Shown: positions 15,516 through 19,292 of the stretch, piece after piece
Position numbering within the stretch: position 1 is the first letter of the stretch
Layout: each line of letters starts with the position of its first letter
Source of the DNA: a virus
Direction: 5' to 3' (one strand)
DNA: 41,247 nucleotides
IMG/VR virus record: IMGVR_UViG_3300037459_000185
Coordinates: 1-41,247 of that record
The notes under the pieces: generated by a model
What the model was told of the DNA's origin: nothing
The model's database searches: none
The model's input: only the letters and a program-made list of their open reading frames with translations
Made by a program: the position numbers and the translations under genes

Positions 15516-15570
15516 GCACCGGACAGGGTTCGGGAAAAGGGGAAGAAGGAGAGTCAACCCTGCCCGGTGC
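15516..15570 (-). terminator. Long hairpin closing array 1
   Basis: The arms GCACCGGACAGGGTT (15516-15530) and AACCCTGCCCGGTGC (15556-15570) pair over 15 positions with one mismatch, around a 25-base loop that is pyrimidine-rich on the minus strand. It begins 14 bases past the last array unit in the leftward direction. It may end the array transcript or define its 3' boundary. No U-run follows directly, so a processing or stability role is equally possible. Confidence 0.6.
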
Positions 15571-15584
15571 CAAATGTGGTTATG

Positions 15585-16434
15585 CGGTTCGATCAGTTCC
15601 CGTGGGTGTCATCATCAATGTCTCGATCTTAGGTTCTGGGCATCTCAAGAAGTGGCTCACTCCGACTCTTTGGGTATCAGCAACTGTGGATCGCTCGAAG
15701 GTGTTGGGTATCTCAAGACGTGGCTCACTCTTCGTAGATGGATATCGATGGAATCGGTTCGTTCGTAGAGCGTGGGTTTCGTCTTCTTTGGCTCACTCCT
15801 CATGCGTGGGTTTCGAGGCTCTTGATTCGATCGTGGAAGTTGGGTTTCCTTGTGTTTGGCTCGATCTAGCGTGCTGAGTATCACCGGTCTAGGCTCGCTC
15901 CTAATGCTTGGGTTTCCAGGGAGATGGCTCGCTCAACTGGGTTGGGTATCAGCCGATCTGACTCGCTCTTGCGTTATGGGTATCGCCTATGGTGGCTCGT
16001 TCCTAGATGTTGAGTATCGGAGGGGTTGGCTCGTTCGGGTATCTCGGGTGTCATGTTCAATGGCTCGCTCGCCTCTCATGGGTATCGTGAGAATTGACTC
16101 GCTCCACGACTTGGTGCATTCTACTTCATGGCTCGATCTGGAAGCGTGGGTATCTGGCACTCTGGCTCGTTCTCATCCGGTGTGTGTCATACGAACTGAC
16201 TCGTTCGTGTTTCTTGGGTGTCTGCGGAGGTGGCTCGCTTTGGGCATCCGAGTATCTACTTCAATGGCTCGATTAAATGTCTTGCACGTCGTCTTCTATG
16301 GCTCACTCCCGAATCGTGGGTGTCATGATGTATGGTTCACTCGGAACTCTTGGGTATCAAGATGGATGGCTCGCTCCTCAACCATGTATATCGGAGGACG
16401 TGGCTCGTTCTTTGGCCTTGAGTGTCTTGGTTTC
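15585..16434 (-). repeat. TIGR-like guide-RNA array 1, 25 units of 34 bases
   Basis: Plus-strand unit: TGGCTCRYTC, 8 variable bases, TGGGTRTC, 8 variable bases; on the minus strand GARYGAGCCA-N8-GATACCCA-N8. The 10-base box starts at 15585 and then every 34 bases without a slip to 16401, giving 25 units. A degenerate box at 16435 merges with the tas stop codon. All 8-base spacers I read differ. Both boxes begin with GA and end with CCA on the minus strand, giving each unit a pseudo-twofold layout. The organisation (two spacers and two constant segments per unit) matches tandem interspaced guide RNAs. Box B at 16113-16120 is degenerate. The array is stop-poor in all phases, so spurious ORFs cross it. 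Confidence 0.88.
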
Positions 16435-16437
16435 TGA

Positions 16438-17565: not shown

Positions 17566-17932
17566 TGGTTCACTTTCCGCCAATGTGTGTCATCGGCGTT
17601 GGTTCGTTCCACGTTTTTGGGTGTCACTCTATTTGGCTCACTCGGACCCGATGGGTATCTGGGCATTTGGTTCGATCCGGGCGGCTGTGTATCTGGTCAG
17701 TTAGCTCACTCCCAGGGACTGGGTATCGGGTCCGTTGGTTCACTCGGATTCTATGGGTATCGGACATCATGGTTCGATCTGGCGGACTGTGTATCCATGG
17801 TTTTGGCTCACTCAACTGTTTTGGGTATCGCTCGACTTTGGTTCGCTCCGAGCACGTGCGTATCTTGTTCTCTGGCTCACTCAGATGCCTTGGGTGTCGG
17901 TTTGTTTGGTTCGCTCTGTTCTCGTACGCATC
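17566..17932 (-). repeat. TIGR-like guide-RNA array 2, 11 units
   Basis: This has the same two boxes and 8-base spacers as array 1, in the same orientation, immediately upstream of the tas ribosome-binding site. The 10-base boxes start at 17566, 17600, 17634, 17668, 17702, 17736, 17770, 17804, 17839, 17873 and 17907. The spacing is 34 except for one 35-base unit, where a spacer has 9 bases. Box A is more often TGGTTC here than in array 1. The last two units lie inside the coding end of the SMC-like gene, so this array is probably processed from that gene's mRNA. Confidence 0.88.
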
Positions 17933-19214
17933 CATCCTCGATGAACACGCCTGGGCCGTCCGGGTCTTCATCGACGATCTCCAAGATGACTTGGTACCCT
18001 CGCTCTGCGGCCATCGTTCGAATGACACCGAGCGAGTCCGAATCGAGTAGCGAAGCGTCGCGCACGAACAGGAGCTTGATCCCCGGGCTGCCCGCGATAG
18101 CCAACTCGATCGAAGCCTTCAACTGTTCCGCGCTGGACGCCTGCGTGAACGACACGGTGCCGAGCATCAGGGTCTTGGCGTCCGCGTCGTAACTCATGCC
18201 GGCGACCGGGAACTCGGCGCCTTCCAAGATCTCTGCGCGCCTGGACCGGATCACTTCCACATCGGCGTTGGCGCTCTCGTGCAGTTCCTTCGCTTCGTTG
18301 GCGGCCGTGTTGAGATCATTCACGGTCTTGTGTGCAGCGACTGCGCCAGCCTGGGACTCCGCGACATCCAGGGTCTTCTTCACACCATCCAGGTCGGGTG
18401 CCCGGTTGTCGGCTAGGTATTTCGCGTGCGCGATCTTCGCATCTCGGTATCTCGGCAACTCCTCCTGGCAAACGACGATCTCTTTCTTTCTCGCTTCGAT
18501 CTCTTCAGCCAGCATCTTGATCGATCCCTCCAAGCGCTCGATGTTCCGAACGGCATAGTCCAAGCTCTCCTTCTCCGACGAGTGCAGAAGGCTGTAATCG
18601 GTTTCCTTCTTCAACGCGTCCGCCGCTTCGGAAATGGATGGCGCAGCCGTGTCGAGCTTGGGCAAGTCCGCCGCAGCCGTGCTGTACGCGGCCTCCGCGC
18701 GCTTGTGATCTCGACCCAGATTCCGGCGAACCTCCATCACTCGTTCTTCCTTCTCGTCCAGTTCGCCCAGCGGTTCGGCCAACCCGGTCATGGCTAGAAC
18801 CTGTTCGGCCTGATCCTCCGGACGAAGCGCGAGGAACTGGCATGGGTCCACGAACTGCGACACGAGTTTGTCGAGCAACTTCTGCGGCGACTTGATCGTG
18901 GTTCCATCGATGGTCCGGCGCACTTCGAGCTTCGTGCCGGTCTCGTCCCAGGTCCGCTTGACCATGATCTCGCCGAAGTCGAGCATGACGGATGCTTCCT
19001 CCGCGCCCTCCTTGATCGGTCGATCCGGCGACACGCGGCCACCGCCCAGGGCTGCCCATATCGCCCAAATCACACTGGTCTTGCCCATGGCATTCGCGCC
19101 GCGTAGCTCGATCGTCCCGCTCTCGTCTGGCTTCAGTTCGACGAGCTTGACCCGCATGAAATCTCGGACGCGCAGTCCGATCAGTGTCAGGTCGGAGAAT
19201 GTCTCTTCGGTCAT
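17877..19214 (-). CDS. SMC/RecF/SbcC-like ATPase, 445 aa
   Basis: The N-terminal ATPase half has Walker A GANAMGKTS (about residues 39-47) in the RecF/SbcC-type context IELRGANAMGKTSVIWAIWAALGG. A long coiled coil covers about 145-330 (KEERVMEVRRNLGRDHKRAEAA onward). The C-terminal half resembles the ABC-ATPase lobe (IKLLFVRDASLLDSDSLGVI, then GYQVILEIVDED). Such phage proteins act in recombination or DNA-end processing. It is first after the promoter at 19240-19292. Its last 19 residues are encoded within array 2 units, an unusual overlap of coding and guide sequence. Confidence 0.85.
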   Translation of the reverse strand: MTEETFSDLTLIGLRVRDFMRVKLVELKPDESGTIELRGANAMGKTSVIWAIWAALGGGRVSPDRPIKEGAEEASVMLDFGEIMVKRTWDETGTKLEVRRTIDGTTIKSPQKLLDKLVSQFVDPCQFLALRPEDQAEQVLAMTGLAEPLGELDEKEERVMEVRRNLGRDHKRAEAAYSTAAADLPKLDTAAPSISEAADALKKETDYSLLHSSEKESLDYAVRNIERLEGSIKMLAEEIEARKKEIVVCQEELPRYRDAKIAHAKYLADNRAPDLDGVKKTLDVAESQAGAVAAHKTVNDLNTAANEAKELHESANADVEVIRSRRAEILEGAEFPVAGMSYDADAKTLMLGTVSFTQASSAEQLKASIELAIAGSPGIKLLFVRDASLLDSDSLGVIRTMAAERGYQVILEIVDEDPDGPGVFIEDGCVREQSEPNKPTPKASE

Positions 19215-19239
19215 GGCCGTTCCTCGTTCATGTTCTAGC

Positions 19240-19292
19240 CAGCCAACTCGGCTGACCTGTGTGCACTATGGGGGTCACGTGGCTTTGTTCAA
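19240..19292 (-). promoter_or_regulatory. Leftward promoter with GAGTT-loop hairpin (copy 2)
   Basis: TTGAAC at 19292-19287, 16-base spacer, CATAGT at 19270-19265, then CAGCC-GAGTT-GGCTG (19254-19240). The -35 box and spacer overlap the end of the upstream zinc-ribbon gene. This promoter would produce the SMC-like gene, array 2, tas and array 1 on one transcript. Confidence 0.75.

Follow-up and report, generated by a model that had tools for sequence, protein, structure and literature searches.

Published TIGR-Tas systems carry arrays of guide units upstream and/or downstream of the tas gene, with 8-nucleotide (nt) spacers in SpTIGR; in the published TasR structure, an edge pair joins the two half edges of one guide RNA (tigRNA); and what these systems do biologically, and what they naturally target, has been stated as open (Faure et al., PMC12045711). 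Here, we analyze a phage contig, the 41,247-base virus record IMGVR_UViG_3300037459_000185 (in its full length, the window), in which the tasA gene (16441..17550, minus strand, stop codon at 16438–16440) is flanked on the same strand by two arrays. The locus is a true TIGR-TasA system, and it is a rare 34-nt, short-loop variant of the known TIGR-TasA kind. We consider it probable that this short-loop phage system acts by guided, non-cleaving interference with rival phages.

The product of tasA, a 370-residue Nop/IS110-C-terminal-like protein, is TasA, as follows from its Pfam domain, the ranking of sequence and profile matches in PDB, and a fold without RuvC or HNH. Pfam yields Transposase_20 (the IS110 C-terminal domain) alone, with an E-value of 5.8e-5, and PHROG 4285 matches at 4.7e-35; the motif GIGP...GLDP is present. 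A single-sequence search of PDB retrieves TasR (9mty, 6e-10) and TasH (5e-5), and a profile of 23 sequences ranks TasR (3e-20) and TasH (7.5e-12) ahead of the IS110 members ISCro4 (1.8e-4) and IS621 (2.5e-4). The AlphaFold2 model (pLDDT 82, pTM 0.77) contains only helices and no strands, and the top nine matches of this model in the Foldseek search against PDB are TasH or TasR, with moderate TM-scores of 0.4–0.65. Neither Pfam nor the all-helical model reveals an HNH or RuvC domain, and the N-terminal DEDD/RuvC-like catalytic domain of IS110 transposases is likewise missing from both; hence, the nuclease-less, TasA-like type assigned in the preliminary description of this locus is supported.

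The arrays were delimited by a scan with the fixed geometry edge–N8–loop–N8–edge, applied to both strands of the whole window. All matches are confined to two minus-strand arrays, with zero on the plus strand. The unit consists of the edge GARYGARCCA (10 nt), a spacer of 8 nt, the loop GATACCCA (8 nt), and another spacer of 8 nt, 34 nt in all, and 34 is the best-scoring period anywhere in the window. The upstream array (17566..17916) comprises 10 units and a terminal edge, and stops shortly before the start of tasA; the downstream array (15585..16434) comprises 25 units, the first degenerate and 24 regular, and a final edge. Together they specify 35 guides. One upstream-array unit, at 17848, is 35 nt long due to a spacer A of 9 nt. 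Both the edge and the loop repeats bear box C/D-like ends, GA...CCA, in the window, in the related phage L002, and in most other relatives. No Rfam family reaches the gathering score in the window. The preliminary description had given two minus-strand arrays of 25 and 11 units with a 34-base period, flanking a same-strand gene with GIGP...GLDP; the period and the arrangement agree with our results, as does the count of 25, while the 11 are edges, i.e., 10 units and the terminal edge.

Covariation between edges shows how the guide unit is to be read. Of the 67 units in the window and L002 combined, 95.5% have a Watson–Crick pair between position 7 of an edge and position 4 of the following edge, compared to 52.8% in shuffles (the highest of 2000 being 71.6%); positions 4 and 7 within one edge are complementary in 48.6%. 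As it is consecutive edges that covary, and not positions of the same edge, the predicted tigRNA unit spans from mid-edge to mid-edge, with a length of 34 nt predicted from the period. Relatives with 36-nt units (n = 1204) show strong pairing both at positions 4–7 (92.8% vs. 60.5% in the control) and at positions 3–8 (91.8% vs. 43.4%), whereas in the 34-nt pair, the window and L002, the 3–8 pair shows no covariation (about 60% vs. 55%). In the 34-nt type, one edge pair thus appears to be lost in addition to two loop bases. Part of the covariation in the window could stem from shared descent of two unit types; pairing is favored since relatives show many combinations. Edge–edge covariation thereby provides a means of delimiting guides by sequence alone. 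TIGR-Tas membership, as initially suggested, is borne out by the protein sequence and fold, the array anatomy, and this covariation.

Relatives were collected in a first scan (34 viral loci) and in a profile scan (281 viral relatives, 80 kept), the two sets partly overlapping; one match in a genome is in Candidatus Propionivibrio aalborgensis. Nearly all relatives examined carry an adjacent dual-repeat array. A period of 36 is seen in 32 first-set and 62 second-set loci, with the same partial overlap, and one of 34 in three of about 96 loci with a detectable array: the window, L002, and the distant L138. Other periods are 35 (L177 and L206) and 37 (L203). The 36-nt type has the edge GARCGAGYCA, the loop GAGAGAACCA, and spacers that are also 8 nt long, so that the 34-nt period arises from an 8-nt loop repeat in place of a 10-nt one. 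As a positive control, the published TasH phage CGphi29 yields a 36-nt array of a like kind by the same method. The preliminary description had raised a distinct subtype as a possibility; here, the 34-nt unit, the shortest among the relatives examined, is indeed a rare real variant, while the 8-nt spacers and the two-sided arrays are undistinctive. In the arrays of L191 and L187, the edge is GATCGAGACA; many units make up the L187 array, and in L191 another period, 32, is also strong. In many mycobacteriophages (Mycobacterium phage Rufus, with gp73, L321, and some 70 records like it), a distant Tas-like protein carries a transposase annotation, and no dual-repeat array is found within 3 kb of this gene in Rufus.

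TasA of the window contains two inserts. Insert 1 (16945..17118, minus strand; about 53 extra residues, helical) lies between GLDPxxxW and RPWN, and an insert at this position is seen in 20 of 109 relatives. Insert 2 (16618..16725, minus strand; about 34 extra residues) is seen in 8 of 109, including all three 34-nt loci, and is found also beside 36-nt arrays. Insert 1 was considered as the setter of loop length and rejected, as other proteins with this insert have 36-nt arrays. The inserts are modular, and neither of them alone accounts for the short loop, since both occur with 36-nt arrays too.

Guides turn over fast between closely related phages. A collinear alignment with L002 covers 61% of the window, at about 66–90% nucleotide identity, and the TasA proteins of the two phages are 90% identical; the exact spacers they have in common are 4 of 68. 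In most cases, a spacer A of the 36-nt relatives is inherited along with its spacer B, as a pair. In addition, four pairs from three families occur in different phages with A and B swapped (at most 1 mismatch in 16), compared to none in 10 shuffles. For TasR, the target rule, spacer B and then the reverse complement (rc) of spacer A, has been measured, and swapped spacers work in vitro (Faure et al., PMC12045711). Since each spacer would bind one strand, swapped guides would address the same double-stranded site, and we read the swapped pairs, by analogy with TasR, as putative independent guides to a common DNA site.

One exactly swapped pair, TGGTGCAC/CAGCGCGG in L164 and L171 and CAGCGCGG/TGGTGCAC in L165, leads to a candidate target. 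Its predicted 16-bp site, CAGCGCGGGTGCACCA, occurs exactly in 104 viral contigs, compared to about 4–9 contigs per exact 16-mer in other guide-derived scans, which served as controls in place of wrong-order guides. For 80 of these loci fetched for inspection, at least 66 have the site at the codons of the [DK]xVVHPRC motif (DIVVHPRC) of the terminase large subunit (TerL; Terminase_3, PF04466 at 7.6e-33 and PF17288 at 5.3e-14); the site in L215 lies near residue 342, within the nuclease domain match. The matched stretch is a conserved part of a packaging gene that many unrelated phages carry. No site within 3 mismatches is found in the carrier records (the search covered carriers other than L164), nor is a homolog of this Terminase_3 TerL found in the carriers, a weak absence, as several records are fragments. 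With neither the site nor that TerL seen in the carriers, the guides would be aimed at other phages. A limited literature search found no earlier report of terminase targets of TIGR systems. By the guide comparison, terminase genes of other phages offer a concrete, testable answer to the question of TIGR targets for one TasA lineage. As to the earlier proposal that paired spacers be sought in related phages, plasmids, and hosts, the TerL site emerged for this 36-nt relative; for the window, no target emerged from matching its guides to its own sequence or from the scan with the one guide shared with L002.

Two further observations concern these genes and guides. The window itself encodes a terminase large subunit at 67–2235 (plus strand); this open reading frame (ORF) looks intein-interrupted, with NHNFIANGFVTHN/T preceding the terminase portion (residues 324–602). 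Separately, the guide GATCACGC/TGACGCGA, common to L161, L166, L168, and L170, has an exact match at position 2020 of L234, inside a primase-polymerase-like ORF, with about 0.4 matches expected by chance.

From these data, we infer processing, binding, silencing, and competition as follows. Each array would presumably be transcribed as a precursor and cut mid-edge, within the 10-nt repeats, into 34-nt tigRNAs, in which two half edges would enclose spacer A, the loop, and spacer B, in this order and of 8 nt each. The guide may be held by a dimer of TasA via its pseudo-symmetric GA...CCA boxes, and the two spacers would each pair with a different strand of a double-stranded DNA site of 16 contiguous bp that reads as spacer B, then rc of spacer A, a geometry indirectly supported in relatives by the swapped guides and the TerL site. 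As TasA has no nuclease, it would most likely be a programmable roadblock that keeps genes of rival phages in the same host from being transcribed or replicated. Interference with rival phages is favored by the swap-symmetric guides, the TerL site, the fast guide turnover, the protein identity, and the covariation. The terminase match suggests, at the level of sequence, that phages use such systems as weapons against one another; for the window, this target claim is carried over by homology and may hold by analogy. In its general form, that TIGR-TasA is an inter-phage weapon whose guides are repeatedly and independently acquired, in either A/B order, against conserved sites in essential genes, such as terminase, of phages unrelated to the carrier, with the 34-nt subtype as a compact variant, we regard the proposal as having an even chance of being correct.

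Several observations weigh against interference with other phages. A published TasR gave no phage protection in Escherichia coli (Faure et al., PMC12045711), and the terminase target hangs on a single guide family, from related phages of the 36-nt type. The 35 guides of the window match the window itself no better than shuffled guide pairs. Chance-level counts are seen for the guide TAACGCAAGCCTAYGG, common to the window and L002 (7 contigs), for the L002 guide GAGACGATGGGGGAGT (4 contigs, in unrelated ORFs save one identical pair), and, in the 36-nt group, for the recurrent or swapped site TTCGASTCACTTTCAA (17 contigs) and a YHEGF-like site (28 contigs). The codon-phase test across guide families is not significant. 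Two other leads were dropped. The zinc-ribbon-like gene of a related phage, at first taken for the target of the YHEGF-like site, was rejected, since it holds several YHE motifs. A search across the TIGR phages' own contigs (1.2 Mb) gave 40 gapless 1-mismatch B+rc(A) matches, compared to 12–24 for shuffled guides, part of them being one conserved gene matched in 8 related phages; this excess was set aside, as after collapsing of guide families it is 36 vs. 19.3 ± 6.6 and still redundant.

The minus-strand order along transcription is an AAA_23/SbcC-like ORF, the upstream array, tasA, the downstream array, and a hairpin. The ORF (17877..19214, minus strand; Pfam 1.3e-6, PHROG 1499 at 2.5e-60) encodes an SbcC/LmuB-like ATPase, and its last codons contain the first upstream-array unit. 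The originally reported span, 15516–19292, contains a real locus and also takes in this ORF. Among the relatives examined, such a gene lies near tas in L002 only; thus, the ATPase is not a conserved tas partner. In TIGR-Tas systems, a truncated edge and then a rho-independent terminator close the array. Here, the terminator-like hairpin after the last edge (15516..15570, minus strand) has a 15-bp stem (–30.2 kcal/mol, z –4.1), the same in L002; it has no U-tract and is absent from the terminator-scan list. At 19785–20330 (minus strand), about 550 bases consist of degenerate GGCNN pentamers with a higher period of 44 bases, seen also in L002 near 3279. A ParB-like N-terminus fused to a DNA methyltransferase is encoded at 9464–10657 (minus strand), not next to tasA.

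Guides aimed at host genes, for takeover or counter-defense, are unlikely: in the target scans, which covered viral sequences, a phage packaging gene is the sole target to emerge, and this in a relative. Regulation of the phage's own genes or copy number by the TasA–RNA complex, as a self-targeting repressor or an aid to partition or recombination, would fit a nuclease-less TasA, the ParB-like/methyltransferase ORF of the window, and the ParB-like TasA partner published for another system (Faure et al., PMC12045711); however, the lack of self-matches above shuffled pairs, the absence of the terminase site from its carriers, and the rapid change of guides between close phages make it improbable. 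Similarly doubtful is the possibility that TasA tags rival DNA for destruction by a separate nuclease, e.g., the neighboring SbcC/LmuB-like protein, whose gene may be co-transcribed given the overlap of its 3′ end with the array, but which is found near tas in no relative examined other than L002. Finally, an IS110-type transposase gene beside unrelated satellite repeats without guide function, in line with the transposase label in Pfam and PHROGs, is already contradicted by the missing RuvC/DEDD domain, the closer TasR and TasH, the arrays accompanying nearly all relatives, and the strong edge–edge covariation, and is extremely improbable.

Compared to the known systems, the locus is most similar to TIGR-TasA (Faure et al., PMC12045711), with a Nop-only protein, a dual-repeat array beside the gene, two-spacer guides, and a phage carrier; it differs in the 34-nt unit with an 8-nt loop, as opposed to 36 nt, in the two TasA inserts, and in the edge pair 3–8 without covariation. 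The TIGR-TasH system of Salicola phage CGphi29 (SpTIGR) shares the 8-nt spacers and a very similar edge (AAGCGAGCCA), but its TasH carries an HNH nuclease at the N-terminus, and its unit is 36 nt long. TaTasR (PDB 9mty), the closest solved chain by sequence profile (3e-20), has a RuvC nuclease, 9-nt spacers, and UG boxes; generally, the boxes of TasR are UG...CCA, those seen here GA...CCA, so that box D differs. IS110/IS621 bridge-RNA transposases have the C-terminal Nop-like domain in common with TasA, whereas here the DEDD/RuvC domain is absent and the guides are organized in arrays rather than in a single bridge RNA.
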